64,000 nt of DNA from NCBI RefSeq assembly GCF_000830005.1, contig NZ_CP010407.1, positions 4,654,001 to 4,718,000 on the forward strand, read 5' to 3'. A program made the translations under genes and the position numbers. Position 1 is the stretch's first letter; the number at the start of each line of letters is the position of its first letter. The stretch comes from Streptomyces vietnamensis (GTDB taxonomy: Bacteria > Actinomycetota > Actinomycetes > Streptomycetales > Streptomycetaceae). This document shows, one piece after another, positions 42,073-58,521 of the stretch. The notes under the pieces were generated by a model that was not told the origin of the DNA, did no database searches, and saw only the letters and a program-made list of their open reading frames with translations.

Positions 42073-43509
42073 ATGTCAACCGTCAATCCCCGGCGCTGGT
42101 GGGCACTTGTCGTGCTCGCGGCCGCTCAGTTCATGGTCATCATGGACACCTCGATCATCGGGGTCGCGCTCCCCGAGATGCAGAAGGACCTGGGCTTCTC
42201 GCAGAGCGAGCTCCAGTGGATCTTCAACGCCTACGTGATCGTCTTCGGCGGTCTGCTGCTCCTCGGCGGACGCCTCTCCGACCTCGTCGGAGCCCGCAAG
42301 ATCTTCGTCTCCGGCTGGGCCGTCATGATCGCCGGTTCGGTCGTGGCCGCCGCCGCGCAGACCGCCTGGGTCGAGATCGTCGGCCGCGCCGTCCAGGGCG
42401 TCGGCGGCGCGCTGATCGCGCCCTCCGCGATGACCCTGCTGATGATGCTCTTCATGCACGACCCGAAGGAGCTCGGCAAGGCGATGGCGCTCTACGGCGC
42501 CGCCGCTCCCGCCGGCGGTACCGCGGGCGTCTTCCTCGGTGGTGTCTTCACCGAGTGGGTGAGCTGGCAGTGGGTCTTCATCATCTACATCCCGATCGGC
42601 CTCGCGACCCTCGCCGCGACCAAGCTTCTCCCGAACGTCGAGTCCCGCCGCGGCTCCGTCGACATCCTCGGCGCCGTCGCCGTCACCGCCGGTCTCGCGC
42701 TCGCCGTCTTCGCCGTCGTCCGTGCCCCCGAGGTCGGCTGGGGCGCCACCGCCACGATCCTGGAGCTGGCCGGCGCCGTCGTCCTCCTGATCCTCTTCTT
42801 CGTGATCCAGAAGAGCATCCGCGAGCCCCTCATGCCGCTCAGCGTCTGGCGGGTCCCGCGCCTCGGCTCGGCCAACCTGGCGATGACGCTGCTCGGCGCC
42901 GCGTGGATCCCGATGTGGTACTTCCTCAACCTGTACCTCCAGCAGGTCCTCGGCTACGGCGCCTTCGAGTCCGGTGCCGCGCTCCTCCCGATGACCGTGC
43001 TCCTCATGATCTTCATGACGGCCATCACGGCCCGGCTCATGATGAAGGTCGGCGCCAAGCCGCTCATCGCCGGCGGTCTGCTGGTCCTCGCGGCCGGTCT
43101 GGTCTGGCTCTCCGCCGTCGAGCCCACCGGCACCTTCCTGGTCGACGTCCTGCCGGCCTCGCTGGTCGCCGCGCTCGGCATGTCCCTCGCCTACATCCCG
43201 ACGATGATGAGCGCGATGGCCAACGCCCCGCAGGAGCAGGCGGGCCTCGCCTCCGGCATCGTCAACACCACCTACAACGTCGGCTCCGCGCTCGGCCTCG
43301 CCGCGCTCACCGCCGTCGCCATGTCCCAGGGCGCCAACGAGCTCGGCAACCTGCCGAAGCTGACGGACGGCTTCTCGTCCGCCTTCATCGGCGCCGCGAT
43401 CATCGCCGCCGTCGGCGGTGTCGTCACCCTCCTCGTCATGAAGGGCGACAAGGCGGTCGCGGCCGAGGCCGCCGCCCCCGCGCCGCAGGGCGAGAAGGTC
43501 GCAGCCTGA
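42073..43509 (+). CDS. DHA2-family (EmrB/QacA-type) MFS exporter
   Basis: A 478-residue transporter with the 14-helix DHA2 layout. Helix 1 has the motif FMVIMDTSIIGVALPEM, motif A is GGRLSDLVGARK, and motif C-like APAGGTAGVFLGG is in helix 5. It should export hydrophobic drugs or a secondary metabolite by proton antiport. ATG 42073 has GAAGGGTCAGGG upstream. Two TACCCC-GGGGTA palindromes precede it, and a terminator follows. It could serve the biosynthetic genes downstream, but has its own transcription unit. Confidence 0.92.
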   Translation: MSTVNPRRWWALVVLAAAQFMVIMDTSIIGVALPEMQKDLGFSQSELQWIFNAYVIVFGGLLLLGGRLSDLVGARKIFVSGWAVMIAGSVVAAAAQTAWVEIVGRAVQGVGGALIAPSAMTLLMMLFMHDPKELGKAMALYGAAAPAGGTAGVFLGGVFTEWVSWQWVFIIYIPIGLATLAATKLLPNVESRRGSVDILGAVAVTAGLALAVFAVVRAPEVGWGATATILELAGAVVLLILFFVIQKSIREPLMPLSVWRVPRLGSANLAMTLLGAAWIPMWYFLNLYLQQVLGYGAFESGAALLPMTVLLMIFMTAITARLMMKVGAKPLIAGGLLVLAAGLVWLSAVEPTGTFLVDVLPASLVAALGMSLAYIPTMMSAMANAPQEQAGLASGIVNTTYNVGSALGLAALTAVAMSQGANELGNLPKLTDGFSSAFIGAAIIAAVGGVVTLLVMKGDKAVAAEAAAPAPQGEKVAA

Positions 43510-43566: not shown

Positions 43567-43603
43567 TTCCGTACTCAGGTTCCGTACTCAGGAAGGAATC
43601 CCC

Positions 43604-44773
43604 GTGGAGCTGAACACCCGCGCCGTGCACGTCGTCAACGATCCTTTCCCCAGCGGTGGTCGGCCGCTCTCCGTGCCCATCGTGCAGTCCTCCGCCTTCG
43701 CCTTCGACTCCGCCGCCGAGCTCGCCGACGCGATGGCCGACCCCGACGGGCGGTACGTCTACAGCCGCCGCGGCAACCCGACCGTACGGGCCCTGGAGCA
43801 GACCCTCGCGGGCCTGGAGGGGGGCGAGGGGGCCATCGCCTTCGCCTCGGGGATGGGCGCCATCAGCGGCGTGCTCCTCGCCCTGCTCAAGCCCGGCGAC
43901 CGGGTGGTCGCCCAGCGCTGCCTGTACGGGGGGACGCACGCGGTCCTGGCGGATCTGGCCGAGCGGTACGGCATCGAGGTCGTACGGATGTCCGGCGACG
44001 ACCCGGCCGAGTTCGAGGCCGCCGCCGTCCACCCCGCCACCCGGCTCCTCGTCCTGGAGACGATCGCCAACCCCACCGGCCAGGTCCCCGACCTGCCCGG
44101 CCTCCTCGCCGCCGCCCGCGCCCTCGGGGTGACGAGCCTGGTCGACAACTCGCTCGCCTCGCCCGTCCTGTGCCGCCCCCTGGAGCTCGGCGCCGACGTC
44201 GTCGTGCACTCCACCACCAAGTACCTCTCCGGGCACTCCGACGTCCTCGGCGGCGCCGCCGTCTTCGCGGACGACGCCCTGCTCCGCCGGGTCTGGCCCC
44301 GCACGGTCGAACTCGGCGCCTGCGCCGACCCGTTCGCGGCCTGGCTCACCCTGCGCGGGATCCCCACCCTGCCGCTGCGGATGCGCGAGCACTGCGCCAA
44401 CGCCGCCGCCCTCGCCGAGCTGCTCGCGACCCGCGCCGGCGTCACGGCCGTCCACTACCCGTGGCGCGCCGGCCATCCCTCGTACGACACCGCCCGGAAG
44501 GTCCTCGCCGGCGGCGGCGGGCTGCTCTCCTTCGAGCTCGCCGGGGGCCGGGAGGCAGGCCGCGCCTTCATCGAACGCGTACGGCTCGCGAAGCTCGCGC
44601 TGTCGCTCGGCGGCGTGGAGACGCTCGTCGCGCATCCCGCGTCCACCTCCCATCGCGAGCTGGACGAGGGCGAGTTGGCGGCCGCGGGGATCGCTCCCGG
44701 GCTCGTGCGGATGTCGGTGGGGATCGAGGACGTCGAGGACCTGTGGGAGGACCTACAGCAAGCACTGGGATGA
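43604..44773 (+). CDS. cystathionine gamma-synthase/gamma-lyase family PLP enzyme
   Basis: A 389-residue trans-sulfuration PLP enzyme. It has YSRRGNPTVRALEQTLAGLE, IAFASGMGAISGV (PLP phosphate loop), LETIANPTGQVPDL, and the PLP lysine in VVHSTTKYLSGHSDV near 207. It could make or split cystathionine, or act as methionine gamma-lyase or an O-acetylhomoserine sulfhydrylase; the motif set does not decide. GTG 43604 has AAGGAAT upstream. It ends in a T-tailed terminator, so it is not part of the next operon, but it would provide homocysteine or cysteine to the SAM cycle encoded there. Confidence 0.9.
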   Translation: MELNTRAVHVVNDPFPSGGRPLSVPIVQSSAFAFDSAAELADAMADPDGRYVYSRRGNPTVRALEQTLAGLEGGEGAIAFASGMGAISGVLLALLKPGDRVVAQRCLYGGTHAVLADLAERYGIEVVRMSGDDPAEFEAAAVHPATRLLVLETIANPTGQVPDLPGLLAAARALGVTSLVDNSLASPVLCRPLELGADVVVHSTTKYLSGHSDVLGGAAVFADDALLRRVWPRTVELGACADPFAAWLTLRGIPTLPLRMREHCANAAALAELLATRAGVTAVHYPWRAGHPSYDTARKVLAGGGGLLSFELAGGREAGRAFIERVRLAKLALSLGGVETLVAHPASTSHRELDEGELAAAGIAPGLVRMSVGIEDVEDLWEDLQQALG

Positions 44774-44796
44774 GGGGCCCCCAGGGCCCCTCTTTT
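44772..44796 (+). terminator. intrinsic terminator with T-run
   Basis: Stem GAGGGGCCC with GGGCCCCTC, 3-base loop, followed by TTTT. This is one of the few classical T-tailed terminators in the window, and it insulates the operon starting at 44800. Confidence 0.92.
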
Positions 44797-44799
44797 GGG

Positions 44800-44829
44800 T
44801 TGACAAAATAAATGGTCGATTCGTAGATT
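44800..44829 (+). promoter_or_regulatory. vegetative promoter of the biosynthetic operon
   Basis: A perfect -35 TTGACA (44800-44805) and -10 TAGATT (44824-44829) with 18-bp spacing, in a markedly AT-rich patch (AAAATAAATGGTCGATTCGT). The -10 lies about 47 bp before the first gene start. The patch could also hold an operator (a TetR-like half-site AATGGTCGATT), which is inference. Confidence 0.8.
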
Positions 44830-44875
44830 GGGTGATGCCAGGAAACGTTGACTCCTAGGTCAAGGGGGGCGCGTG

Positions 44876-45415
44876 ATGCGCTACTTCGAGGACTTCCGGC
44901 CCGGCGACGTCCACGAGCTGGGCACCGTCACCGTCACGGCGGAGGAGGTGCTGGAGTTCGGCAGGCGCTTCGACCCGCAGCCCTTCCACACGGACCCCGA
45001 GCTCGCGAAGGACTCCCCGTTCGGCGGTCTGATCGCGAGCGGGTTCCACACCCAGGCGATGTTCATGCGCCGCTACGTCGACGGACTGCTCGCCTACAGC
45101 GCCTGTACGGGCTCGCCCGGCATCGACGAGGTCCGCTACCTGCGGCCCGTCCGCCCGGGCGACGTCCTCACCGCGCGCGTCGAGATCCTCGGCTCCACCC
45201 CGTCGCCGTTCAATCCCGCCACCGGCACCGTCAAGCCGCGGTGCACGCTCGTGGCCGCCGACGGGACGGCCGTGTTCAGCATGATCCTGCACAGCATCTT
45301 CCGCCGGCGCCCCGCCGACTCCGAGGCCGACCATCTGTCGTCGATGCCCGCGGCCGAGGACCCCGTCGCCTGTGTGCGACCGGCCAAGACCTGTGTCCCG
45401 GCCATGAGCGCCTGA
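44876..45415 (+). CDS. MaoC-type hydratase/dehydratase
   Basis: A 179-residue hot-dog-fold hydratase. The catalytic Asp/His motif FDPQPFHTDPELAKDSPFGG lies at residues 32-51, as in R-specific enoyl hydratases, and the later IASGFHTQAM and VRYLRPVRPGD blocks are family-typical. It would add or remove water at an enoyl thioester, here probably on the carrier protein encoded downstream. The ATG at 44876 is best spaced from GGGGGG; an adjacent GTG (44873) is possible. It is the first gene of the operon. Its C-terminal tail is longer than usual (about 30 residues, two cysteines). Confidence 0.86.
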   Translation: MRYFEDFRPGDVHELGTVTVTAEEVLEFGRRFDPQPFHTDPELAKDSPFGGLIASGFHTQAMFMRRYVDGLLAYSACTGSPGIDEVRYLRPVRPGDVLTARVEILGSTPSPFNPATGTVKPRCTLVAADGTAVFSMILHSIFRRRPADSEADHLSSMPAAEDPVACVRPAKTCVPAMSA

Positions 45416-45488
45416 CGAACCGTTCCTTCGTCGGGCCCCTGAACACGGCCGTCCGAATCTCCGCAACCCAACCGAAGGGGGACCTCCT

Positions 45489-46328
45489 GTGGAGGCCGTA
45501 TCCCGCACCGCCCAGTGGACCGCCGCCGCGCGCGCCCTGGAGACCGAGCGCGAGGACCGGCTGTTCGCCGATCCCTACGCGCGCACCGTCGCCGACGAGA
45601 TCGGCTTCGAACTGCTCGCGCGCTACGACGGCGGCGGCATCGTGCCGTTCCTCGCCATCCGCACCACCTACCTCGACCGGGCCATAGTCAAGGCGGTGGA
45701 GGAGCGCGGCATCCGCCAGGTCGTCTTCCTCGCCGCCGGCATGGACACCCGCTTCTTCCGGCTTCCCTGGCCCGACGGCGTCACCGTCTACGAGCTCGAC
45801 CGCCCGGCCCTCCTGGAGGCCAAGGCCGAGATGCTCAAGGACGAGCCGCGGCCCGCCGGCCGGACCCGCGTCACCGTCCCCGTCGACCTCACCCGGGACT
45901 GGACCGGCCCCCTGAAGGAGGCCGGCTGGAAGAGCGAGGAGCCCGTCCTGTGGGTGGTCGAGGGCCTGCTGTTCTTCCTGCCCGAGCAGGCCGTACGGAC
46001 CCTCATCTCGCTGCTCGCCTCGCACGCCGCGCCCGGCTCCGTGCTGCTCGGCGACGTCATCTCGAAGTCCGCCCTGGAGAACCCGCTCGCCCGGAGCTTC
46101 ATGAAGGCCCTGGAGGAGGACGGCAACCCGTGGCTCTTCGGCACCGAGGAGCCCGAGGCGCTGCTCGCCGACTGCGGCTGGGCCGTACGCGAGGTCAAGC
46201 AGCCCGGTGAGGACGGCGCCGCCTTCGACCGCTGGCCCTACCCGGTCCCGGCCCGCTCCGTACCGCGCATGCCGAGGTCGTTCTTGTTCACGTGTGACAC
46301 GCCGGCGTACGAGGAGAAGGCCGCATGA
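45489..46328 (+). CDS. leucine carboxyl methyltransferase-family SAM methyltransferase
   Basis: A 279-residue PF04072-type methyltransferase. It has TAQWTAAARALETEREDRLF at the start, IRTTYLDRAIVKAVEERG, the SAM-binding VVFLAAGMDTRFFRLPW, YELDRPALLEAKA and LWVVEGLLFFLP. Members usually methylate carboxylates or hydroxyls of polyketides and other natural products. GTG 45489 is preceded by AAGGGGG. The stop overlaps the next start (ATGA). Confidence 0.9.
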   Translation: MEAVSRTAQWTAAARALETEREDRLFADPYARTVADEIGFELLARYDGGGIVPFLAIRTTYLDRAIVKAVEERGIRQVVFLAAGMDTRFFRLPWPDGVTVYELDRPALLEAKAEMLKDEPRPAGRTRVTVPVDLTRDWTGPLKEAGWKSEEPVLWVVEGLLFFLPEQAVRTLISLLASHAAPGSVLLGDVISKSALENPLARSFMKALEEDGNPWLFGTEEPEALLADCGWAVREVKQPGEDGAAFDRWPYPVPARSVPRMPRSFLFTCDTPAYEEKAA

Positions 46329-47368
46329 GCGCCCACGACTTCCACCAGAAGGTCATCACCGACGCGGGCGCGGCCGTCCGCGGCCTGACCGTCGCCCTCG
46401 GCGAGCGCCTCGGGCTCTACAAGGCCCTGGCCGCCGACGGTCCGCTCACCGCCGAGCAGCTGGCGGAGAAGACCGGCACGAACACGCGCTACATCGAGGA
46501 GTGGCTGCACGCCCAGCTCTCCGCCGGGTACGTCGAGCGGCACCCCAGCTCCCTCACGTACACCCTGCCCGCCGACCACGTCGAGGTCCTCGCCGACCCG
46601 AAGGCCGTGACGTACGCCGCCGGGTTCTTCACCGCCCTCAAGGCGCTGTACGCCACCGAGGACCTGCTCGTCGACGCATACCGCACCGGCGACGGCGTCG
46701 GCTGGGCCGAGCACGACGCGGCCCTCGACACCGGCATGGGCTCCTTCTTCCAGCCCACGTACGAGCACAAGCTCGTCCCCGACTGGCTGCCCGCCCTCCA
46801 CCAGGTCACCGACAAGCTGGCGAACGGCGGCACCGTCGCCGACGTCGGCTGCGGCGTCGGCCACACCACCCTCCTCATCGCGAAGGCCTTCCCGAACGCC
46901 ACCGTCCACGGCTTCGACTACTCCGAGGAGGCCATCTCCATCGCGCGCGAGCTCGCCGAGGAGGCCGGCCTCTCCGACCGGGTCGTCTTCGAGGTCGCCT
47001 CCGCCGACGACTACCCCGGCTCCGGCTACGACCTGGTGTGCTTCTTCAACGCCCTGCACGACATGGGCGACCCCGTCGCCGCCGCCCAGCACGTCCACAA
47101 GTCCCTCGACGCGGACGGCACCTGGATGCTCGTCGAGTCCAACGTCTCCCCGCAGGACATCGACACCCAGACCCCCGCCGCCCGCATGTTCATGGCCCTG
47201 TCCGCCGTGATGTGCCTGCCGGTCGCCGTCGCGCAGCGCGGCCCGCACGCCCTCGGCAACCACTCCGGCGAGAAGGCCTTCCGCGCCATCGCCGAGGAGG
47301 CCGGCTTCACCCGCTGGCGGCGCGCCACCGAGACCCCGGTCAACGCGGTCTACGAAGTCCGCCCGTAA
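46325..47368 (+). CDS. winged-helix class I SAM methyltransferase
   Basis: A 347-residue methyltransferase with an N-terminal winged-helix dimer domain (LGLYKALAADGPLTAEQLAE, Rv2258c-like) and a C-terminal SAM domain with motif I VADVGCGVGHTTLLIAKAFP near residue 175 and FFNALHDMGDP. Small-molecule O- or N-methyltransferases have this layout. Its ATG overlaps the previous stop by 4 bp. With the carboxyl-type methyltransferase beside it, the pathway uses at least two methyl transfers, matching the SAM-cycle genes downstream. Confidence 0.9.
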   Translation: MSAHDFHQKVITDAGAAVRGLTVALGERLGLYKALAADGPLTAEQLAEKTGTNTRYIEEWLHAQLSAGYVERHPSSLTYTLPADHVEVLADPKAVTYAAGFFTALKALYATEDLLVDAYRTGDGVGWAEHDAALDTGMGSFFQPTYEHKLVPDWLPALHQVTDKLANGGTVADVGCGVGHTTLLIAKAFPNATVHGFDYSEEAISIARELAEEAGLSDRVVFEVASADDYPGSGYDLVCFFNALHDMGDPVAAAQHVHKSLDADGTWMLVESNVSPQDIDTQTPAARMFMALSAVMCLPVAVAQRGPHALGNHSGEKAFRAIAEEAGFTRWRRATETPVNAVYEVRP

Positions 47369-47392
47369 CCCCACGTCGCGAGGAGCGAGACC

Positions 47393-48286
47393 ATGGGCGT
47401 GACCGCCCCCCTGCCCGTCACCGACCGCTTCATGGAGGTCCTGAGCCGCCTCAGCGAGCGTTCGGTCGAGGACTACTACAACCCGTACCAGACCTTCCGG
47501 TGGCCCGAGACGCTGGAGGAGAACCGCTTCTGGATGACGCCGGAGCTGCTCACCGTCTACGGCACCGAGCACTACGACACCCTCGGTGAGGAAACGCTTC
47601 AGTGCCTGTCGAAGTGGGAGTCGATCAACTTCTACAGCCTCAACGTGCACGGCATCCGCGAGCTCCTCATCGAGGTCGTCGGCCGCATCCACATGCCCGG
47701 CTTCGAAGTCCCCTCGGACTTCTTCCACCACTTCATCGGCGAGGAGAACGAACACATGTGGTTCTTCTCCGAGTTCTGCCGGCGCTACGGCCACAAGATC
47801 TACGGCTCCACCGCCATGCGCGCCGACGCCGCCTGGGAGCCGGAGGTCGAGAACTTCCTCGTCTTCACCCGCATCCTCTTCTTCGAGGAGCTCGTCGACC
47901 ACTACAACTCCCGGATGGCGAAGGACGATTCCCTCTGCCACACCATCCGCGAGGTCAACCGCATCCACCACCAGGACGAGTCCCGCCACATCGCCTTCGG
48001 GCGCGAGCTGGTCTCCCTCCTCCACCAGCGGATGTGCCAGGCCGTGAGCGCCGAGCGGGTCCGCGAGGTCGAGGCGTACCTCAAGCGGTACGTCGTCTAC
48101 AGCATCAACTCCCTCTACAACCCGCACGTGTACAAGGACGCCGGCATCGCCGACCCGCTCGGCCTGCGCAACGCGCTGATCGCCGACGAGTCCCGGCGCG
48201 CCCACGAGCGCAAGGCGGTCCGCAAGCCGCTCGCCTTCTTCCTGAAGACCGGGATCTTCTCGGACGACACCCTGCCCGTCCTCTGA
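47393..48286 (+). CDS. AurF-type non-haem diiron N-oxygenase
   Basis: A 297-residue diiron oxygenase of the AurF/CmlI family, which oxidise amines to hydroxylamine, nitroso or nitro groups with O2. The iron ligands are visible: Glu in EEETLQCLSKWESIN-like helix (TLGEETLQCLSKWESINFYS), EExxH in FIGEENEHMWFF near 118, Glu in RILFFEELVDHYN near 160 and DExxH in IHHQDESRHIAFG near 192. GAGGAG precedes the ATG. Its place between the methyltransferases and a carrier-protein ligase suggests that it acts on an amine held on the carrier, as CmlI can, but the substrate is not known. Confidence 0.88.
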   Translation: MGVTAPLPVTDRFMEVLSRLSERSVEDYYNPYQTFRWPETLEENRFWMTPELLTVYGTEHYDTLGEETLQCLSKWESINFYSLNVHGIRELLIEVVGRIHMPGFEVPSDFFHHFIGEENEHMWFFSEFCRRYGHKIYGSTAMRADAAWEPEVENFLVFTRILFFEELVDHYNSRMAKDDSLCHTIREVNRIHHQDESRHIAFGRELVSLLHQRMCQAVSAERVREVEAYLKRYVVYSINSLYNPHVYKDAGIADPLGLRNALIADESRRAHERKAVRKPLAFFLKTGIFSDDTLPVL

Positions 48287-48317
48287 GAGACGCCCTCACC
48301 CGAGAGGTGCACCGATC

Positions 48318-49190
48318 ATGACCACGACCACCCCCGAGCAGAACGTCGGGGCGACCACGGGACTGCCCACGCTCGGCCCGGAGGGGACCCGCCTGCTGCG
48401 GCTCCTCGACGACACCTTCGAGGGCTGGGGGGTGGCCGCGGGCGCCCGCCCCATGACCATGCCCCCGCTCCTCCCGGCCGCCGACCTGGCCAAGCTCGAC
48501 TACTACGACAACTTCCCCCACCAGGCCGTCGTCGCCGCCCCGCTCGACCTGGAGCGCCGCGCGACCACGCCCTTCGACACCACCGCCGGCCGCTTCCCGA
48601 GCGACGCACTCGAACCCGCCGCGCTCGGCCTGCCCTCGGCCTCCTGCTACGCCGTCTACCTCACCCACCAGGGCACCCGGGTCGCCGACGACACCCTCGT
48701 CACGATCTGCTCCTGGTGCTTCCGCAAGGAGACGCACTACGAGGGCATGCGGCGCCAGCTCGGCTTCCGCATGCGGGAGGTCGTCGCCATCGGCACCCGC
48801 GAGCACGCCGAGAACCACCTCGCCGAGTTCACCACCCGCATCCAGTCCTTCGCGAAGGCCCTCGACCTGCCGCTGCGCAGGGAGGCCGCCTGCGACCCCT
48901 TCTTCGACAAGGGCAGCTCCAAGGCCGTCCTCCAGCGGCTCACCCCGGTGAAGTACGAGTTCCTGTACGAGGACCTGGCGATCGCCTCGGTCAACACGCA
49001 CCGGAACTTCTTCGGCGAGCGCTGCGACATCACCCTGGCCTCGACCGGCGGACCGGCCTTCACCAGCTGTGTCGCCTTCGGCCTGGAGCGCTGGCTGTCG
49101 GCGCTGACCCGCCGCCACGGCAGCTGGGAGTCCGCCGAGCGGGCCGTCCTCGAAGCCGGTGCGAGCGGCGCGGCCGGGCCGGTGATCTGA
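48318..49190 (+). CDS. class-II-synthetase-like amino acid:carrier protein ligase
   Basis: A 290-residue protein resembling the Bradyrhizobium aa:CP ligases: a stripped atypical seryl-tRNA synthetase core that adenylates an amino acid and loads it on a carrier protein instead of tRNA. Motif 2 is CSWCFRKE (Arg136, Glu138) and motif 3 is FGLERW (Arg258). Cys110, Glu154 and Cys251 fall at spacings (44, 97) that closely match the zinc ligands of that family (45, 103). It lacks a tRNA-binding domain. The following PPTase and free carrier protein genes are its obvious partners. Gly, Ala or Ser are likely substrates; this cannot be read from sequence. Confidence 0.78.
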   Translation: MTTTTPEQNVGATTGLPTLGPEGTRLLRLLDDTFEGWGVAAGARPMTMPPLLPAADLAKLDYYDNFPHQAVVAAPLDLERRATTPFDTTAGRFPSDALEPAALGLPSASCYAVYLTHQGTRVADDTLVTICSWCFRKETHYEGMRRQLGFRMREVVAIGTREHAENHLAEFTTRIQSFAKALDLPLRREAACDPFFDKGSSKAVLQRLTPVKYEFLYEDLAIASVNTHRNFFGERCDITLASTGGPAFTSCVAFGLERWLSALTRRHGSWESAERAVLEAGASGAAGPVI

Positions 49191-49191
49191 C

Positions 49192-49635
49192 GTGCCGGCC
49201 CGTCCCGCCGCCCCGCCGGCGGGCGGCCTGGGGTGGGCGAACCTCGGCATGGACATCGTGTCCGTCAACCGTGTCCGCAGGCTCCTCGCCCAGTACGGGG
49301 AGCGGTTCTTCGAGCGGATGCTCACCCCCGGCGAGCTCGCCGACTGCCGCACCTCCTCCGGGCTCGACGTCCTGAGCCTGTGCGGGCGGATCGCGGCGAA
49401 GGAAGCGGCGTTCAAGACCTTACGGGTCCGCGGCAGGTTCCTGCCCTGGCCGGACATCGTCGTGCGGCGCTCCGAGGGCGGCTGGCCGCTCGTGGAACTG
49501 CACGGGCCCGCGGCCGAGATGGCCGCCGAGTCCGGGATCACCGAGATCACCGTGTCCATCAGCCACGACGTGGACTACGCGGTCGCGGTCGCCGCCCCGA
49601 TCATCGCCCCCACCCCTTCCTCATCGAACAGCTGA
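49192..49635 (+). CDS. AcpS-type phosphopantetheinyl transferase
   Basis: A 147-residue holo-ACP synthase homologue with the metal site [12 protein letters not shown], the [12 protein letters not shown] core and VSISHD. It should attach 4'-phosphopantetheine to the Ser of the carrier protein encoded 14 bp downstream. The GTG start follows the previous stop by one base; the first 18 residues are Pro/Ala-rich and may be a wrong extension, since AcpS proteins begin at GMDIV. A dedicated AcpS beside its carrier is unusual; the housekeeping copy should be elsewhere. Confidence 0.86.
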
Positions 49636-49649
49636 CAAGGAGAACAACC

Positions 49650-49904
49650 ATGGCCGACGGCCTGCAGACGGTGAAGAACTGGATCCTCGAGCGTCACCCC
49701 GAGCGCGACGACATCGCCGCCGACCTCGACCTGATCGAGAACCGGCTCATCGACTCGCTGTCCTTCGTCGAGTTCGTCTTCCTCCTGGAGCAGGAGAGCG
49801 GCACCGCCATCCAGATGGAGACCCTGGAGGTCGACTCCATCCGCACCCTCGGCGCCATCGAGCAGCACTTCTTCACGGCCAAGGTGGAGGTGGGCCAGGC
49901 ATGA
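49650..49904 (+). CDS. free-standing acyl/peptidyl carrier protein
   Basis: An 84-residue four-helix carrier protein. The phosphopantetheine Ser is in the motif [18 protein letters not shown] near residue 36 (D-S-L). AAGGAG precedes the ATG, and the stop overlaps metK (ATGA). Given its neighbours it should receive an amino acid from the synthetase-like ligase and present it to the diiron oxygenase and other enzymes. Confidence 0.9.
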
Positions 49905-51109
49905 GCCGTCGCCTGTTCACCTCGGAGTCCGTGACCGAGGGACATCCCGACAAGATCGCCGACCGGATCAGCGACACCATCCTCGACGCGCTCCTCGCCG
50001 AGGACCCCCACTCCCGGGTCGCCGTGGAGACCCTGATCACCACCGGTCAGGTCCACATCGCCGGCGAGGTCACCACCTCCGCGTACGCGCCGATAGCCCA
50101 GCTGGTGCGCGACGCCGTCCTCGACATCGGCTACGACTCCTCCGCGAAGGGCTTCGACGGCGCCTCCTGCGGCGTGTCGGTGTCCATCGGCGCGCAGTCG
50201 CCGGACATCGCGCAGGGCGTCGACACCGCCCACGAGGCGCGCGTCGAGGGCGTGGACGACGAGCTGGCGGCCCAGGGCGCCGGCGACCAGGGCCTGATGT
50301 TCGGCTACGCCTGCGACGACACGGCCGAACTGATGCCGCTGCCGATCGCGCTCGCCCACCGGCTCTCCCGCCGCCTCACCGAGGTCCGCAAGGACGGCAC
50401 CGTGCCGTACCTGCGTCCGGACGGCAAGACGCAGGTGACCATCGAGTACGACGGGGACCGCCCGGTCCGCCTCGACACGGTCGTCGTCTCCTCGCAGCAC
50501 GCCGCCGACATCTCGGTGGAGGGCCTGCTCACCCCGGACGTCCGCGAGTACGTCGTCGAGCACGTCCTCAAGCAGCTCGTCGAGGAGGGCGTCAGCCTGG
50601 AGTCCGACGGCTACCGCCTGCTCGTGAACCCGACCGGCCGCTTCGAGGTCGGCGGCCCGATGGGCGACGCGGGCCTGACCGGCCGGAAGATCATCATCGA
50701 CACGTACGGTGGGATGGCCCGGCACGGCGGCGGCGCGTTCTCCGGCAAGGACCCGTCGAAGGTGGACCGCTCGGCGGCGTACGCGATGCGCTGGGTCGCG
50801 AAGAACGTCGTCGCGGCCGGTCTCGCCAAGCGCTGCGAGGTGCAGGTCGCGTACGCGATCGGCAAGGCGGAGCCCGTCGGCCTCTTCGTCGAGACCTTCG
50901 GCACGGGCACGCTCCCGGACGAGAAGATCCAGGAGGCCGTGAGCGAGGTCTTCGACCTGCGCCCGGCGGCGATCATCCGCGACCTGGACCTCAAGCGGCC
51001 CATCTACGCGGCGACGGCGGCGTACGGCCACTTCGGCCGCGAACTCCCCGAGTTCACCTGGGAGCGCACCGACCGCGTGGAGCGGTTGAAGAAGGCAGCG
51101 GGGGTCTGA
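49901..51109 (+). CDS. metK: S-adenosylmethionine synthetase
   Basis: Makes SAM from methionine and ATP. The 402-residue protein is full length, with [13 protein letters not shown] at the start, [12 protein letters not shown], the P-loop-like [20 protein letters not shown] and [15 protein letters not shown]. It starts inside the carrier gene stop (ATGA). As a member of a biosynthetic operon it is probably a second copy besides the housekeeping metK, boosting SAM for the two methyltransferases. Confidence 0.96.
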
Positions 51110-51114
51110 GGGAG

Positions 51115-52098
51115 ATGCGCATCGCTGTCACGGGATCCATCGCGACCGACCATCTGATGACCTTCCCCGGCTGGTTCAGCGAGCAGCTGCTCGCCGACCG
51201 GCTCGACCGGGTCTCCCTGTCGTTCCTCGCCGACAACCTGGAGGTCAGGCGCGGCGGAGTGGCAGCGAACATCGCCTTCGGACTCGGCGTCCTCGGCCTG
51301 CGGCCGGCCCTCGTGGGCGCGGTCGGCGCGGACTTCGAGCCGTACCGGGTCTGGCTGAAGGACCACGGCGTGGACACCGACTCGGTGCGCGTCAGCGAGT
51401 CGCTCCACACCGCCCGCTTCGTCTGTACCACCGACCGGGCCCAGAACCAGATCGCCACCTTCTACGCCGGGGCGATGGCCGAGGCGCGCGAGATCGACCT
51501 CCGCGAGGTCGTCGCCCGCACCGGCCGCCTGGAACTGGTCCTGGTCTCCCCGGACGACCCCGAGGCCATGCTCCGGCACACCCGCACCTGCCGTGACCTG
51601 GGGATCCCCTTCGCCGCCGATCCGTCGCAGCAGCTGGCGCGGCTCGACGGGGAGCAGGTGCGGGAGCTGGTGGACGGGGCCCGGTTCCTGTTCACCAACG
51701 AGTACGAGACGGCCCTCCTCCTGGAGAAGACCGGCTGGCCGGAGGCGGAGGTGCTGAGCCGGGTCGGCACCTGGGTCACCACCCACGGCGAGGCCGGCGT
51801 CCGCATCCGCGGCGAGGGCCGGGATCCGTCGGCGGTTCCGGCCGTGGAGGTCCCGGCGGTCGTCGACCCGACCGGCGTCGGCGACGCCTTCCGGGCCGGG
51901 TTCCTCGCGGGGACGCTGTGGGGCGTGCCGGAGCGGTGCGCGGCACAGCTGGGCTGCGCGGTCGCGGCGACCGTCCTCGACTACGTGGGGACGCAGGAGT
52001 ACCGGCTGCACCGGGACTCCCTCCTCGACCGGATCAGGACGACGTACGGGGTGGGCTGCACGGCCACCCTGGTCACCCATCTGAGGGGGCTGTCATGA
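51115..52098 (+). CDS. PfkB-family kinase, probable adenosine kinase
   Basis: A 327-residue ribokinase-family enzyme. It has MRIAVTGSIATDHLMTFPG, the RRGGVAANIAFGLGVLG substrate motif and VDPTGVGDAFRAGFL with the catalytic Asp. This form with LEVRRGGVAANIA resembles actinobacterial adenosine kinase. Between metK and metH/ahcY, it most likely removes the adenosine released by AhcY, pulling that reversible reaction forward. It starts 5 bp after metK and overlaps metH by 4 bp. Confidence 0.88.
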   Translation: MRIAVTGSIATDHLMTFPGWFSEQLLADRLDRVSLSFLADNLEVRRGGVAANIAFGLGVLGLRPALVGAVGADFEPYRVWLKDHGVDTDSVRVSESLHTARFVCTTDRAQNQIATFYAGAMAEAREIDLREVVARTGRLELVLVSPDDPEAMLRHTRTCRDLGIPFAADPSQQLARLDGEQVRELVDGARFLFTNEYETALLLEKTGWPEAEVLSRVGTWVTTHGEAGVRIRGEGRDPSAVPAVEVPAVVDPTGVGDAFRAGFLAGTLWGVPERCAAQLGCAVAATVLDYVGTQEYRLHRDSLLDRIRTTYGVGCTATLVTHLRGLS

Positions 52099-55000
52099 GC
52101 GAAGCCCGGCGGTCGCTCAGGGAGGAGTTCGCGACGCGGGTCGTCGTCGCCGACGGGGCGATGGGCACCATGCTCCAGGCCGCCGACCCGACGATGGACG
52201 ACTTCACCGGCCTCGAAGGCTGCAACGAGATCCTCAACCTCACCCGCCCCGACGTCGTCGCCTCCGTCCACGACGCCTACTTCTCGGTCGGCGTGGACTG
52301 CGTCGAGACCAACACCTTCGGGGCGAACCTGGCCGCGCTCGCCGAGTACGGCATCGAGAACCGGGTGTACGAACTGTCCGAGGCGGGCGCCCGGATCGCC
52401 CGGGGGGTCGCCGACGCCCACACGGCCGTCGACGGCCGCCCCCGCTGGGTCCTCGGCTCCATGGGACCCGGTACGAAACTGCCGACCCTGGGCCACGTCA
52501 CGTACGAGCCCCTCCGCGAGGCCTTCCAGCAGAACGCCGAGGGCCTGATCCGCGGCGGCGCCGACGCCCTGCTCATCGAGACCTCGCAGGACCTGCTCCA
52601 GACGAAGGCGGCCGTCATCGGCGCCCGCCGGGCCCTGGACTGGGTCGGCGTGGACCTGCCGGTCATCGTGCAGGTCACGGTGGAGACGACCGGCACGATG
52701 CTGCTCGGCTCCGAGATCGGGGCGGCGCTGACGGCCCTGGAGCCGCTCGGCATCGACATGATCGGCCTGAACTGTGCCACGGGCCCGGTGGAGATGGCCG
52801 AGCACCTCCGCCACCTGTCGCGGCACGCCCGCATCCCGATCTCGGTCATGCCGAACGCGGGCCTGCCGGTGCTGACCTCGGACGGCGCCCACTACCCGCT
52901 GTCGCCGTCCGAACTGGCCGACGCCCAGGAGCAGTTCGTACGGGAGTACGGGCCGGCGCTGGTCGGCGGCTGCTGCGGTACGACTCCGGAGCACCTGCGG
53001 GAGATCGTGGAGCGGGTGCGGGGCGCGGCCGTACTCGACCGGCAGCCGGTCGCGGAGCCCGGCGCCTCGTCCCTGTACAGCCACGTCCCGTTCCGGCAGG
53101 ACACCTCGTACCTGGCGATCGGCGAGCGGACCAACGCCAACGGCTCGAAGAAGTTCCGCGAGGCCATGCTCGAGGGCCGCTGGGACGACTGCGTGGAGAT
53201 GGCCCGCGACCAGATCCGCGAGGGCGCGCACATGCTCGACCTGTGCGTGGACTACGTGGGCCGCGACGGCGTCGCGGACATGGCGGAGCTGGCGGGCCGT
53301 TTCGCGACGGCGTCGACGCTGCCGATCGTGCTCGACTCCACCGAGGTGGGGGTGCTGCGGGCCGGCCTGGAGAAGCTCGGCGGCCGGGCGGTCGTCAACT
53401 CGGTCAACTACGAGGACGGCGACGGGCCCGAGTCGCGGTTCGCGCAGGTCACGGCCCTCGCGAAGGAGCACGGCGCGGCGCTGATGGCGCTGACGATCGA
53501 CGAGGAGGGGCAGGCGCGGACGGCCGAGCAGAAGGTCGCGATCGCCGAGCGGCTCATCGCCGACCTCACGGGGAAGTGGGGGATCAGGGAGTCCGACATC
53601 CTGATCGACACCCTCACGTTCACGATCTGCACGGGCCAGGAGGAGTCGCGGGGCGACGGCATCGCGACGATCGAGGCGATCCGCGAACTGAAGCGCCGCC
53701 ACCCGGACGTGCAGACCACGCTGGGCCTGTCGAACATCTCCTTCGGTCTCAACCCGGCGGCGCGGATCGTCCTCAACTCCGTCTTCCTGGACGAGTGCGT
53801 GAAGGCGGGCCTGGACTCGGCGATCGTGCACGCCTCGAAGATCCTGCCGATCGCGCGCCTGGAGCCGGAGCAGGTGGAGGTGGCGCTCGACCTGATCCAC
53901 GACCGGCGGCGGGAGGGCTACGACCCGCTGCAGCGGCTGCTTGAGCTGTTCGAGGGGGCGACGGCGAAGTCCCTGAAGGCGGGGAAGGCCGAGGAGCTGC
54001 TCGCGCTGCCGCTGGAGGAGCGTCTGAAGCGGCGGATCGTCGACGGCGAGAAGAACGGCCTGGAGGCCGACCTCGATGCGGCACTGTCGGAGCGGCCGGC
54101 GCTGGAGATCGTCAACGACGTGCTGTTGGACGGCATGAAGACGGTCGGTGAGCTGTTCGGCTCCGGCCAGATGCAGCTGCCGTTTGTGCTCCAGTCCGCC
54201 GAGGTGATGAAGACGGCGGTGGCCTATCTGGAGCCGCACATGGAGAAGTCGGATGCCGAGGGCAAGGGGACGATCGTCCTGGCGACGGTCCGTGGCGATG
54301 TCCACGACATCGGCAAGAACCTCGTGGACATCATCCTGTCCAACAACGGCTACAACGTCGTCAACATCGGCATCAAGCAGCCGGTCTCCGCGATCCTGGA
54401 GGCCGCCGAGGAACACAACGCCGACGTCATCGGCATGTCCGGCCTGCTGGTGAAGTCCACCGTGATCATGAAGGAGAACCTGGAGGAGCTGAACGGCCGC
54501 GGGTTGGCCGCGAAGTACCCGGTGATCCTGGGTGGGGCGGCCCTGACCAGGGCGTACGTCGAGCAGGACCTGCACGAGCTGTACCAGGGCGAGGTCCGCT
54601 ACGCCCGCGACGCCTTCGAGGGCCTGCGGCTCATGGACGCGCTGATGGGCGTGAAGCGGGGCGTCCCCGGGGCCGTACTCCCGGAGCTGAAGCAGCGCAG
54701 GGTGCCCAAGCAGCCGGTGGTGCTTCCGGAGGTCCGGGAGCCCGAGCCGGCCGGCCGCTCCGACGTGGCCGCCGACAACCCCGTACCCGAGCCCCCCTTC
54801 CTCGGAACCAAGGTCGTCACCGGCATCCCGCTCGCCGAATACGCCCCCTGGCTCGACGAGACCGCCCTCTTCAAGGGCCAGTGGGGTCTCAAGGACAACG
54901 GGACCATCGACTCGGAAGGCCGACCGCGCCTGCGGGCGCTGCTCGACCGGATCGAGCGGGAGGGCCTGGTCGAAGCGGCCGTCGTGTACGGCTGGTTCCC

Positions 55001-55562
55001 CTGTGTGTCCAAGGGCGACGACCTGATCGTCCTGGACGAGGACGGAGGCGAGCGGACCCGCTTCTCCTTCCCCCGCCAGCAGCGGGGCCGCCGCCTCTGC
55101 CTGGCCGACTTCCACCGTGCCGAGGACTCCGGCGAGGTGGACGTGGTCGCCCTCCAGGTCGTCACCGTCGGATCGCGGATCGGGGAGGAGACGGCCCGGC
55201 TCTTCGCCGCCGACGCCTACCGCGACTACCTCGAACTGCACGGTCTGTCCGTGCAGTTGGCGGAGGCGCTCGCCGAGTACTGGCACGCCCGGGTGCGGGA
55301 GGAGTGGGGCATCGGCGCCGCCGACCCCGCCGGCCTGGAGGGCATGCTGCGCACCGAGTACCAGGGCTGCCGCTACTCCCTCGGCTATCCGGCCTGCCCG
55401 GACCTGGAGGACCGGGCGAAGATCGCCGAGCTGCTCCGCCCGGAGCGGATCGGGGTCGAGCTGTCGGAGGAGTACCAGCTCCATCCCGAGCAGTCGACGG
55501 ACGCGATCGTGGTCCACCACCCGGAGGCGAGCTACTTCAACGCGGGAGGCCGACGGCTGTGA
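52095..55562 (+). CDS. metH: cobalamin-dependent methionine synthase
   Basis: Transfers the methyl of 5-methyl-tetrahydrofolate to homocysteine through B12. The 1155-residue protein has four modules: homocysteine domain 1-310 ([13 protein letters not shown]; zinc cysteines in VGGCCGTTP near 290), folate domain about 330-600 ([14 protein letters not shown]), B12 domain about 640-880 ([14 protein letters not shown] near 734, with the Co-binding His) and reactivation domain to the end. ATG overlaps the kinase stop by 4 bp, and the stop overlaps metF. No cobalamin riboswitch is seen within the operon. Confidence 0.97.
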
Positions 55563-56422
55563 CCCCCACCTTCTCCTTCGAGTTCTTCCCGCCGAAGAGC
55601 GACAAGGGCGAGCAGACCCTGTGGGACGCGATCCGGCGCGTGGAGGCGTTGAAGCCGGACTTCGTGTCGGTGACGTACGGGGCGGGCGGCTCGTCCCGCG
55701 ACCGGACGATCGAGGTCACGAAGCGGATCGTGACGGAGACGACGATGCGGCCCGTCGCCCATCTGACGGCCGTCGGGCACTCGGCCGCCGAGCTGCGGGC
55801 CATCATCGGCGCGTACGCGGACGCCGGCGTACGGGACGTGCTCGTGCTGCGCGGCGACCCGCCGGGCGATCCGCGGGGGGAGTGGACCCCGCACCCGGAC
55901 GGATTCCGTCACGCGTACGAACTCGTCGAACTGGTCCGGTCGCTGGGCGAGTTCAGGATCGGGGTGGCGGCCTTCCCGGAGGGCCACCCGAGGTCCGTCG
56001 ACGCCAGGAGCGATCTGGCGCACTTCGTCGCGAAGTGCCGGGCGGGTGCGGACTACGCCATCACGCAGATGTTCTTCGACCCCGAGGACTACCTGCGGCT
56101 GCGGGACCGGGTCGCCGCCGCCGGCTGCGACACCCCGATCATCCCGGAGATCATGCCCGCCACCGACGTACGCCAGATCCGGCGCTTCGCCGAGCTGAGC
56201 GACGCGGCCTTCCCCGAGGACCTGGCGCACCGCCTGGAGGCGGCGAAGGACGACCCGGCGGCCTCGTACCGCATCGGGGTCGAGCACGCGACGCGGATGG
56301 GCCTGCGGCTGCTCGACGAGGGCGCGCCGGGCCTGCACTACATCACGCTCAACAAGTCGACGGCGGCCCTGGAAATCCACCGAACCATCATGAGTGCAAG
56401 GAGAGTTGCAGCGCATGTCTGA
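55559..56422 (+). CDS. metF: 5,10-methylenetetrahydrofolate reductase
   Basis: A 287-residue FAD enzyme that makes the 5-methyl-tetrahydrofolate used by MetH. It has [46 protein letters not shown] and the [15 protein letters not shown] region. GTG start overlapping the metH stop (GTGA), so translation is coupled. Its end overlaps the ahcY start by 8 bp. Confidence 0.96.
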
Positions 56423-57809
56423 CTTCACCGATTACAAGGTCGCCGACATCTCGCTGGCCGCCTTCGGCCGGAAGGAGATCACGCTGGCCGAGCACGAGAT
56501 GCCCGGCCTGATGGCGATCCGCCGCGAGTACGCCCAGACCCGGCCGCTGGCCGGGGCCCGGATCACCGGCTCCCTGCACATGACCGTGCAGACGGCCGTC
56601 CTCATCGAGACCCTCGTCGCCCTCGGCGCCCAGGTGCGCTGGGTGTCGTGCAACATCTACTCCACCCAGGACCACGCGGCCGCCGCGATCGCCGCCGCCG
56701 GGATCCCGGTCTTCGCCTGGAAGGGCGAGACCCTGGAGGAGTACTGGTGGTGCACCGAGCAGGCCCTGACCTGGCCCGGCGCCGAGGGCCCCAACATGAT
56801 CCTGGACGACGGCGGGGACGCGACCCTCCTGGTCCACAAGGGGGTGGAGTACCAGAAGACCGGCGTGCTGCCGGAGGCCTCCAACGAGGAGCTCGCGGTC
56901 GTCCGCGCCCTGCTTGAGTCCACCACCCTGGACTGGGCGGCGATCGCGGCCGGCATCCGGGGCGTGACGGAGGAGACCACCACGGGCGTGCACCGGCTGT
57001 ACGAGATGCACCGCGAGGGCGCCCTGCTCTTCCCGGCGATCAACGTGAACGACGCGGTGACGAAGTCGAAGTTCGACAACAAGTACGGCTGCCGCCACTC
57101 CCTGATCGACGGCATCAACCGCGCCACCGACGTCCTCATCGGCGGCAAGACGGCCGTCGTGTGCGGCTACGGGGACGTCGGCAAGGGCTCGGCGGAGTCG
57201 CTGCGCGGCCAGGGCGCCCGGGTGATCGTCACGGAGATCGACCCGATCTGTGCGCTGCAGGCGGCGATGGACGGCTACCAGGTCGCCACCCTGGAGGACG
57301 TGGTGGAGACGGCCGACATCTTCATCACCACCACCGGCAACAAGGACATCATCATGGCGTCCGACATCGCCCGGATGAAGCACCAGGCCATCGTCGGCAA
57401 CATCGGTCACTTCGACAACGAGATCGACATGGCGGGTCTGGCGCAGATCCCGGGGATCGTGAAGGACGAGGTGAAGCCGCAGGTCCATACCTGGACGTTC
57501 CCCGACGGCAAGGTCGTCATCGTGCTCTCCGAGGGCCGGCTGCTGAACCTGGGCAACGCGACCGGGCATCCCTCGTTCGTGATGTCGAACTCGTTCGCGG
57601 ACCAGACGCTGGCGCAGATCGAGCTGTTCACGAAGACGGCGGAGTATCCGGTGGGGGTGTACACGCTGCCCAAGCAGCTGGACGAGAAGGTGGCGCGGCT
57701 GCACCTGGACGCGCTGGGCGTGAAGCTGACGACGCTGCGTCCGGAGCAGGCGTCGTACATCGGGGTCCCGGTGGAGGGACCGTACAAGCCGGACCACTAC
57801 CGCTACTGA
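56415..57809 (+). CDS. ahcY: adenosylhomocysteinase
   Basis: Splits S-adenosylhomocysteine into adenosine and homocysteine, relieving product inhibition of the methyltransferases. The 464-residue length, [18 protein letters not shown], the NAD-binding [16 protein letters not shown] and the C-terminal KPDHYRY (Lys and Tyr contacting NAD) are all typical. AAGGAG stands 12 bases before ATG 56415; an upstream in-frame start at 56394 is less likely. With metK, the PfkB kinase, metH and metF it completes a SAM cycle in one operon. Confidence 0.97.
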
Positions 57810-57815
57810 GGCCGC

Positions 57816-58481
57816 ATGTGTACCGACGACACCCGTGATCCGTGGCTCCCGGACAGACTCCTCCGTACGGAACGGGACCTGCTGATGCCGCTCCTCCGGC
57901 GCACACCGGAGGCGGCGTACGAGCTCCGCACCGCGTGTCCCGGCTGGACCGCACGGCAGGTCCTCGCCCACTGCGGGGCGGCGCTCGTCCGGATCGTCGA
58001 GGACCGCCTGGAGGAAGGAGTCTTCCTGCCGGAGGCCAACGCGTGTGACGTGGCGGAACGCGAGGACTGGCCGGTGGGCCGGATCCTCGACGAACTGGAA
58101 CGAGGCCTGACGGAGGCGGGGCCGGTCATCGCGGCGCGCGAGGACGGCCGGCTCGACGCGGTCGCCCTGGGGGAGTGGGTCCACGCCGGAGACGTACGGG
58201 AGGCCTTCGGCGAGCCCGGCGCGTACTGCGGCGCGGCCCTCGACCTGGCGCTCCCGCTGTTGTCGGTGACGAGCCGGCGCCGGGAGACGCCGCGCCTGGT
58301 CGGCGTCCTCGCGGACCGGAAGAGGGAGGTGGCCCTCGGCAACGAGATCGAGGGCCGGCCGGCAGCCCGCTTCCACGGCGACGCGGCCACCTTGATCCGC
58401 ATCTATTCGGGACGCCCGCTGGTCAGGACGCGTTACGAACTGACGGGCGCCACGGAGCAGGAACTTCTCATCTACCGCTAG
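57816..58481 (+). CDS. DinB/mycothiol-dependent maleylpyruvate isomerase-like protein
   Basis: A 221-residue protein of the MDMPI/DinB superfamily: TACPGWTARQVLAHCGAALV near residue 38 holds the conserved CPGW and the first metal His, and EWVHAGDVREAFG near 117 the next ones. The C-terminal part (TGAATEQELLIYR-like, TGATEQELL) is the SCP2-like tail seen in the family. Members use mycothiol for isomerisation or conjugation. It follows ahcY by 6 bp, so it may belong to the operon, perhaps for detoxifying a reactive intermediate. That link is inference. Confidence 0.8.
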   Translation: MCTDDTRDPWLPDRLLRTERDLLMPLLRRTPEAAYELRTACPGWTARQVLAHCGAALVRIVEDRLEEGVFLPEANACDVAEREDWPVGRILDELERGLTEAGPVIAAREDGRLDAVALGEWVHAGDVREAFGEPGAYCGAALDLALPLLSVTSRRRETPRLVGVLADRKREVALGNEIEGRPAARFHGDAATLIRIYSGRPLVRTRYELTGATEQELLIYR

Positions 58482-58521
58482 GTCGGGCCGGGTCGGGCCG
58501 GGCCGGGTCGGGCCGGGGAGG
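58482..58521. repeat. 10-bp tandem repeat after a stop codon
   Basis: GTCGGGCCGG is repeated about four times (one copy with a 5-bp insertion-like variant), starting at the base after the MDMPI-like stop. Confidence 0.85.

Follow-up and report, generated by a model that had tools for sequence, protein, structure and literature searches.

A co-inherited Streptomyces gene cluster built on an AurF-type oxygenase, a class II amino acid ligase and a carrier protein, with a proposed glycine nitronate pathway

An operon of Streptomyces vietnamensis sets genes for a carrier-bound amino acid pathway beside two methyltransferases and a set of S-adenosylmethionine (SAM) cycle genes, which raises the questions of what chemistry it encodes and which of its genes are inherited together. 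It lies in a window of 64,000 nt (NZ_CP010407.1, positions 4,654,001 to 4,718,000, forward strand), and coordinates below are counted within this window unless a contig or locus is named. The operon is a real, co-inherited biosynthetic cluster, in which an AurF-family oxygenase, an amino acid:carrier protein ligase and an acyl carrier protein (ACP) form a true unit. The cluster is larger than an earlier note on this DNA had described, with a major facilitator superfamily (MFS) transporter and a pyridoxal phosphate (PLP) enzyme upstream, an MDMPI-like gene inside and a five-gene block outside the window. We favor, with moderate confidence, a cluster free of nonribosomal peptide synthetase (NRPS) and polyketide synthase (PKS) that would convert glycyl-ACP to a nitronate and then to an O-methyl nitronate, followed by tailoring.

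Co-inheritance of the oxygenase, the ligase and the carrier protein

Two collections were searched. The first comprised 392 genomes of the same genus, in which AurF homologues were called at E ≤ 1e-20 and ligase homologues at E ≤ 1e-15; the genome searches for AurF, the ligase and the PIG-L protein described below scored up to six candidates per genome, and absences in them are not absolute. We found 89 AurF homologues in 75 genomes and 148 ligase homologues in 111 genomes, and a ligase started within 3 kb of 87 of the 89 AurF homologues. The second collection held the best 80 of 258 named loci; near relatives of the window are overrepresented in it, and some of its species also occur in the first set. 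The ligase and the ACP were present in 79 of the 80 loci and an LCM methyltransferase in 78. Thus, in the co-occurrence search that had been named beforehand as the refuting test, the ligase, the ACP and the oxygenase were kept together in relatives, along with one methyltransferase.

The two AurF homologues without a ligase were found on G102:C489, at a contig end, and on G181:C5 (L105), where flanks of 8 kb contained none. The exceptions in the second collection were L182, a contig of 3.6 kb, and L209, a real miss with no ligase, ACP or LCM gene in the 10 kb downstream and an upstream side that ends at 1.7 kb. At E ≤ 1e-55, the AurF clade was found in 3 of 396 genomes of the phylum, representing 1 of 236 genera, and the scan of named loci shows it in other actinobacterial genera. 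Nine of the 16 fetched ligase-only loci (L142 to L146 and L153 to L156) carried a ligase and an ACP without AurF, with a condensation-domain-like gene on the opposite strand, a putative further use of the ligase.

Gene order was compared in the 17 loci fetched first (L037 to L053), drawn from the 31 genomes with an AurF at least 80% identical. All had the same order, MFS, PLP enzyme, MaoC, LCM, second methyltransferase (MT2), AurF, ligase, AcpS, ACP, MetK, PfkB and at least part of MetH, although the sequences of L052 and L053 end before the end of the unit. The conserved unit in relatives therefore also takes in the two genes upstream of MaoC, with an MFS gene in all 17. Four of these loci (L047 to L050) yielded no MetF.

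A proposed route from glycyl-ACP to an O-methyl nitronate

Loading, N-oxidation to a nitronate and O-methylation are the best-supported steps of the proposed pathway, and by analogy with published systems they are reasonably probable. The class II ligase would activate an amino acid, most likely glycine, and load it onto the ACP after priming by AcpS. The AurF-type diiron enzyme would oxidize the carrier-bound amine to a nitronate (an aci-nitro thioester), and the TIGR00027 methyltransferase would then O-methylate it. The order proposed in the earlier note, in which an amino acid is loaded, N-oxidized and methylated, agrees with the glycine pathway cited below; we have revised it to glycine and to O-methylation of a nitronate, both as the most likely alternatives.

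In AurF, residues E76, E118, H121, E165, H192, E196 and H199 were invariant in 17 aligned sequences and correspond to the six metal ligands and the seventh His of N-oxygenases. These residues follow the order listed for Dob3 in PMC13061610, and the E..H and H...E..H motifs are spaced as in that list. The genome itself holds six AurF-family genes and two ligases, and the ligases adjoin two of the six AurF genes. Residues 41 to 273 of 290 of the ligase aligned with Bll0957 (PDB 3mey), leaving no room for a tRNA-binding domain. C110, E154 and C251, invariant in 11 rows, align with Bll0957 at positions that we take to be zinc ligands. In MaoC, D34 and H39 lie in columns at least 93% conserved (26 rows); this is presumably the catalytic Asp/His pair, and its retention would make an elimination from an O-methyl nitronate chemically possible. 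Among the best 120 of 473 LCM homologues, names were generic wherever given. The closest solved structure to MT2 is TnmJ (8g5s).

For the INTERMEDIATE question, loci were sorted by the gene found beside AurF, the ligase and the ACP on the same strand and within 8 kb. The 163 fetched loci, which come from overlapping sets, comprised 122 with LCM, 15 with a nitronate monooxygenase (NMO) homologue and 26 with neither; none had both. After removal of near-copies, 92 nonredundant loci remained, with LCM in 56, NMO in 13, neither in 23 and both on the AurF strand in none. The opposite strand showed two exceptions, an NMO relative of 34% identity in L070 (LCM type) and an LCM relative of 47% in L114 (neither gene). 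When the three labels were placed on the AurF tree, which carries a long-branch warning, they required 8 changes, compared with 32.5 in shuffles. The NMO gene of L071 matched Pfam NMO (nitronate monooxygenase) with 132.8 bits, and its sole NCBIfam match, FabK, was far below cut-off.

As a nitronate monooxygenase replaces LCM in sister loci, the common intermediate should be a nitronate. Glycine-derived nitronates are described as proceeding to O-methylation or to denitrification (He & Ryan 2021, as cited in PMC9967187 and PMC12154687). The split between LCM and NMO matches this published split, and the core is therefore read as leading from glycyl-ACP to a nitronate and an O-methyl nitronate. 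Both branches are present in the genome of S. vietnamensis, at the window locus (LCM) and at L076 near 0.845 Mb (NMO).

It could be argued that the oxygenase stops at the oxime after a four-electron oxidation, so that the methyltransferase would make an O-methyl oxime, as for the glycine-derived oximes in althiomycin and akazaoxime, and no nitronate would arise. A diiron oxygenase is indeed reported to give an aldoxime from carrier-bound glycine (PMC9967187), and AurF-type enzymes are described as reaching the nitroso, nitro and nitronate levels (PMC12154687). However, sister loci have a nitronate monooxygenase where the methyltransferase would stand, next to the same core of ligase, ACP and oxygenase; this fits a nitronate better, and we consider an oxime end point unlikely. 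A hydrazine/diazo or N-nitroglycine pathway (PMC13061610, PMC13274452) was rejected, as no hydrazine-forming genes were present among the operon families.

Variations around the core were observed in both branches. L076 (G000:C1:836346-856200) is an NMO-type AurF-ligase-ACP cassette with a condensation-domain gene and an ABC transporter. In seven loci of the LCM type (L061, L066, L067, L069, L225, L226 and L233), MaoC is replaced by KAS III, a pre-ATP-grasp protein, an ornithine-decarboxylase-like enzyme, an extra ACP and an acyl-CoA dehydrogenase; these loci probably make different products from the same starter.

Extent of the cluster and its accessory genes

Twelve open genes follow one another on the + strand between 44873 and 57809, separated by -8 to 73 bp when the AhcY start is taken as 56415 (Table 1). 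This agrees with the earlier note, and the families that it had named for the twelve genes (MaoC, two methyltransferases, AurF, amino acid:carrier protein ligase, AcpS, ACP, MetK, PfkB, MetH, MetF and AhcY) were confirmed by profile matches. Its gene list lacked a 13th gene, MDMPI-like, which starts 6 bp after AhcY. The strong promoter and T-tailed terminator that it had also described could both be located before MaoC, but as consensus matches that are statistically weak. The sigma-70-like site (TTGACA-18-TAGATT, 44800 to 44829) has 10 of 12 consensus matches and is the sole such site in 41900 to 58800, where 0.5 would be expected in shuffles. A T-tailed terminator-like hairpin (44772 to 44792) lies between the PLP-enzyme gene and MaoC, just upstream of the promoter-like site; the region held four terminator-like sites, with 3.3 expected. 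Downstream of AhcY and of the MDMPI-like gene, a search extending to 58800 gave no terminator-like site on the + strand.

Table 1 Features of the conserved unit, with coordinates counted in the window
Feature	Position	Strand	Basis
MFS transporter, opening the conserved unit	42073..43509	+	Pfam MFS_1
PLP enzyme, Cys/Met metabolism family (cystathionine gamma-synthase/methionine gamma-lyase type), proposed C-S lyase or gamma-replacement enzyme	43604..44773	+	Pfam Cys_Met_Meta_PP, 398.7 bits
Terminator-like hairpin and sigma-70-like promoter before MaoC	44772..44829	+	Consensus matches only
MaoC-like hotdog (de)hydratase	44873..45415	+	Pfam MaoC_dehydratas
LCM/TIGR00027-type SAM methyltransferase, proposed nitronate O-methyltransferase	45489..46328	+	TIGR00027, 216 bits (cut-off 93.55); PF04072
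Second SAM methyltransferase MT2, Rv2258c-like N-terminal domain	46325..47368	+	PF21320, PF13847
AurF-family diiron N-oxygenase	47393..48286	+	PF11583, 115.8 bits (cut-off 29.6)
Amino acid:carrier protein ligase, class II, seryl-tRNA synthetase-like	48318..49190	+	PDB 3mey (Bll0957), E = 1.1e-26
AcpS-type phosphopantetheinyl transferase	49192..49635	+	PF01648; TIGR00516 over cut-off
ACP with DSL serine	49650..49904	+	PF00550, 22.2 bits (cut-off 20.8)
MetK, SAM synthetase	49901..51109	+	TIGR01034, 554 bits; one of three in the genome
PfkB-family sugar/nucleoside kinase	51115..52098	+	PF00294
MetH, B12-dependent methionine synthase	52095..55562	+	TIGR02082, 1397.6 bits; one of three in the genome
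MetF, methylenetetrahydrofolate reductase	55559..56422	+	TIGR00676, 330 bits, over cut-off
AhcY, S-adenosylhomocysteine hydrolase	56415..57809	+	PF05221, 498 bits, searched from an earlier GTG at 56394; start at 56415 is our interpretation
MDMPI/DinB-like protein, proposed thiol transferase	57816..58481	+	TIGR03083, 77.7 bits (cut-off 50)

Every step after O-methylation is proposed only from family resemblance. MaoC might perform a (de)hydration or an elimination on the carrier-bound product. The mycothiol-type pair formed by the MDMPI-like and PIG-L proteins would transfer a thiol, the PLP enzyme would cleave a C-S bond, and MT2 would add a second methyl group. AsnB-like and methionyl-tRNA synthetase (MetRS)-like proteins may form an amide or ester, and the SAM-cycle genes would regenerate SAM for both methylations.

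The distribution of these genes is roughly nested. The nesting runs from the core of AurF, ligase, ACP and LCM through MaoC or KAS III, MDMPI with PIG-L, the PLP enzyme, MT2 with PfkB, and the block from the AsnB-like to the MetRS-like gene, to the SAM cycle. Exceptions are L202 (PLP enzyme without MT2), L198 (MT2 without PfkB), L195 (MT2 without a detected PLP enzyme or PfkB), and L188 and L190, in which the block occurs and the SAM cycle does not. The SAM cycle is an accessory add-on module, consistent with the further copies of its genes in the genome: a second set of MetK, MetH and AhcY is grouped near 0.75 Mb, and the third copies of MetK and MetH lie elsewhere. The genes of the "private SAM cycle" of the earlier note are present, but several loci that otherwise resemble this one lack them and retain the other genes, and we rejected the SAM cycle as the cluster core. 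PfkB is kept in L054, L188, L190 and L206 without MetK, MetH or AhcY in the fetched stretch and hence may not be only an adenosine kinase. In the second set (L251, G000:C1:745001-765000, approximately 6180 to 14290), AhcY is 100% identical to that of the window in the blastp alignment, MetH 88% and MetK 90%. The identical AhcY suggests a recent exchange between the sets.

For the PLP enzyme, the best PDB match was methionine gamma-lyase, the SxTK lysine K206 lies in columns at least 93% conserved (26 rows), and none of the 25 NCBIfam models listed reached its cut-off. A role in methionine supply was rejected, as the gene is retained in loci without the SAM cycle. The MDMPI-like protein scored just below cut-off against Pfam MDMPI_N (23.0 bits) and DinB_2 (21.0 bits) and had no match in the PDB; its H52 and H123 are conserved in 21 rows. 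The PIG-L domain protein is encoded outside the window (G000:C1:4743049-4743849), approximately 31 kb beyond the MDMPI-like gene. It was found with at least 82% identity in exactly those 31 of the 392 genomes that have an AurF of at least 80% identity. Three further genomes (G265, G311 and G285) have it at 56 to 57%, all with an MDMPI-bearing LCM cassette (L057, L056 and L054), and G179 has a 47% relative with no AurF or ligase match. Fourteen genomes of the genus carry an LCM cassette with no MDMPI in the fetched stretch (G146, G060, G241, G090, G349, G363, G056, G181, G303, G158, G375, G066, G002 and G278), and none of them had a PIG-L at E ≤ 1e-40. Loci without the SAM cycle often carry PIG-L. 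Together, the MDMPI-like protein, PIG-L and the PLP enzyme resemble the mycothiol steps of lincomycin biosynthesis, which suggests by analogy a transfer of sulfur. We take the lincomycin PLP enzyme to belong to another family than that of the operon.

Beside PIG-L are genes for an AsnB-like amidotransferase, a PrpF-like protein (below cut-off in the window's genome and above it in L190), a short-chain dehydrogenase/reductase (SDR) and a class I MetRS-like protein. The AsnB-like and MetRS-like genes were compared between the 31 genomes with an AurF of at least 80% identity, all of one genus, and 39 hand-picked comparison genomes, nine of which carry another cassette or a lone PIG-L (G179). The MetRS-like gene was present at 65% identity or more in all 31 positives (in three pieces in G224) and the AsnB-like gene at 64% or more in 30, with only a 44% relative elsewhere in G038; neither was found at such identity in the 39 comparison genomes. 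A Fisher test made here ignores kinship and was not relied on. The MetRS-like protein had no match at E ≤ 1e-30 in 30 of the 39 comparison genomes and is therefore far from ordinary MetRS, and a role as a drug-target copy conferring self-resistance was rejected. Relatives of 48 to 52% identity were observed at L252:9484-11790 and L253:8358-9962, near genes whose starts, as we read them, look like those of lysine/ornithine N-monooxygenases. The gene that follows the MetRS-like gene in L240 (17706-17999) presumably resembles at its start MshA of mycothiol synthesis.

The block is about 31 kb from the operon in the window's genome, and descent alone could give part of the pattern in positives that all belong to one genus. 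One may thus view the operon as a mere high-output methylation module, and PIG-L with the AsnB-like, PrpF-like, SDR and MetRS-like genes as an old chromosomal neighbor co-inherited by descent. We find this improbable. The absence of the AsnB-like and MetRS-like genes at the positives' identity from the 39 comparison genomes argues that the block is not core region (PrpF-like and SDR genes were not searched), and the block also occurs in S. oceani and Streptomyces sp. HNM0574, both without the SAM cycle. Moreover, AurF and PIG-L share a contig in 24 genomes, 17 with a distance of 16 to 42 kb and 7 (G076, G321, G365, G009, G074, G038 and G362) with 10 to 12.4 kb, which places PIG-L directly behind the operon in the latter.

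In the window's genome, the DNA between the operon and PIG-L includes an NRPS-like gene (58700 to 62419, + strand). Its product has AMP-binding, carrier and thioesterase domains, the first of them separated by a long stretch from the C-terminal part, and looks to us like an indigoidine-type synthetase. Lying on the same strand 218 bp behind the MDMPI-like gene, and with such domains, the NRPS-like gene might be taken for a missing condensing enzyme fed by the operon. It was found in 7 of 16 downstream flanks (8 to 9 kb) of relatives with an AurF of at least 80% identity and not in the other 9, several of which have PIG-L and the block instead. As the gene is not co-inherited, we set it aside as the condensing enzyme, a role that we judge very unlikely. 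The earlier note had stated that there is no PKS or NRPS; the inherited unit includes none, but the NRPS-like gene does adjoin it.

Several observations weigh against the pathway proposed here. The choice of glycine, the oxidation level of the nitronate and the site of O-methylation come from the literature, whereas what we observed are genes, families and co-inheritance. The profile of AurF homologues matched no PDB chain, and its ligands were compared by motif order and spacing. The ligase scored 135 bits against PRK07080, the NCBIfam aminoacyl-ACP ligase equivalog with a cut-off of 357, and is thus a relative rather than that equivalog. AurF occurs without a ligase in G181:C5 and L209, where the stretch is not cut, and 60 of the 148 ligase homologues have no such AurF nearby, indicating that the ligase is not specific to this chemistry and also serves other systems. 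The 23 of 92 nonredundant loci without LCM or NMO on the AurF strand, some cut by contig ends but many not, indicate that other fates exist. Shared descent of a single chromosomal region may account for part of the co-inheritance seen for the downstream block, and some comparison genomes have AsnB relatives of lower identity (44 to 55%, with four genomes at 54 to 55%) or MetRS relatives (up to 53%, best in G012). In the MDMPI-like protein, counting by spacing, a Gly occupies the expected metal-Glu position in 21 of 21 rows, with a Glu one residue on in most. Three PIG-L relatives tested scored nearer BshB than Mca, all below the cut-offs of BshB, Mca and MshB.

These features of the MDMPI-like and PIG-L proteins make detoxification a serious rival to sulfur transfer. 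The pair would then serve self-protection by conjugating a reactive nitronate or breakdown product to mycothiol and trimming the adduct for export, the PLP enzyme would supply methionine, and the product would contain no sulfur. A mycothiol S-transferase with a conjugate amidase is a known detoxification pair (PMC4351081), the conserved unit includes an MFS transporter, and the PLP enzyme belongs to a methionine-metabolism family. Nevertheless, the PLP enzyme is kept without MetK, MetH, MetF or AhcY in the fetched stretches of L054, L188, L190, L198, L202 and L206 and so does not track methionine supply. In addition, the 14 genomes with an LCM cassette and neither MDMPI nor PIG-L in the searches above should face an equally reactive nitronate. 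We regard self-protection as possible, if less probable than not.

A more speculative extension of the sulfur-transfer proposal, to which we assign little likelihood, is that the cluster is a bacterial counterpart of plant glucosinolate chemistry leading to a new class of thiohydroximate-type products made without NRPS or PKS. The carrier-bound glycine would become an O-methylated aci-nitro thioester, from which MaoC would remove methanol or water to give a nitrile-oxide-like electrophile. The MDMPI-like protein would add mycothiol, PIG-L would trim the adduct, and C-S cleavage by the PLP enzyme would leave a thiohydroximate. MT2 might S-methylate it, and the AsnB-like and MetRS-like enzymes could join it to an amino group.

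Relation to known systems and significance

No matching cluster or product was found in the open-licence literature, and the inability of the earlier note to match the operon to a known product still holds. In its opening chemistry the operon resembles the pathway to enteromycin carboxamide (He & Ryan 2021, cited in PMC9967187 and PMC12154687), which has carrier-bound glycine, a diiron oxygenase and a methyltransferase, with the NMO branch found here in sister loci. The operon may differ from that pathway in its loading by a class II amino acid:carrier protein ligase, and it is set apart by MaoC, the mycothiol-type genes, the PLP enzyme, MT2 and the SAM cycle. The akazaoxime/A-76356 cluster likewise uses a diiron oxygenase and a nitronate O-methyltransferase on glycine, but with NRPS and PKS modules (PMC9967187), none of which is co-inherited here. 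The ligase shares with those of the Bll0957 type the catalytic-core sequence, the short length and the aligned Cys/Glu/Cys, but it is tied to an N-oxygenase.

In lincomycin and celesticetin biosynthesis, LmbV is described as DinB-type, LmbE as Mca-like and LmbF as a PLP enzyme (PMC4351081, PMC5518657). Together with LmbG, they parallel the DinB/MDMPI-type protein, the PIG-L/LmbE-type hydrolase, a PLP enzyme acting on a cysteinyl residue and a methyltransferase. The MDMPI-like protein here seems to lack the metal Glu, and we do not claim membership in that type. SAM-regeneration cassettes of MetK, PfkB, MetH, MetF and AhcY are found in the furaquinocin and furanonaphthoquinone clusters; a literature search on such cassettes in streptomycete clusters found nothing. 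The gene set is the same, but here it stands beside a carrier-bound amino acid pathway.

The opening chemistry is thus probably known, and its gene setting new and larger. It probably represents carrier-bound glycine nitronate chemistry that starts from a class II synthetase-like ligase and is provided with its own SAM supply as well as another synthetase-like protein, of class I. Among the 392 species sampled in the genus, 31 (about 8%) carry the full form, and finders keyed on NRPS or PKS could miss such a cluster. Its gene set is now well bounded for deletion or expression. If the mycothiol-type genes do add sulfur, the cluster would join nitronate chemistry with mycothiol-derived sulfur, a pairing that, to our knowledge, is found nowhere else.

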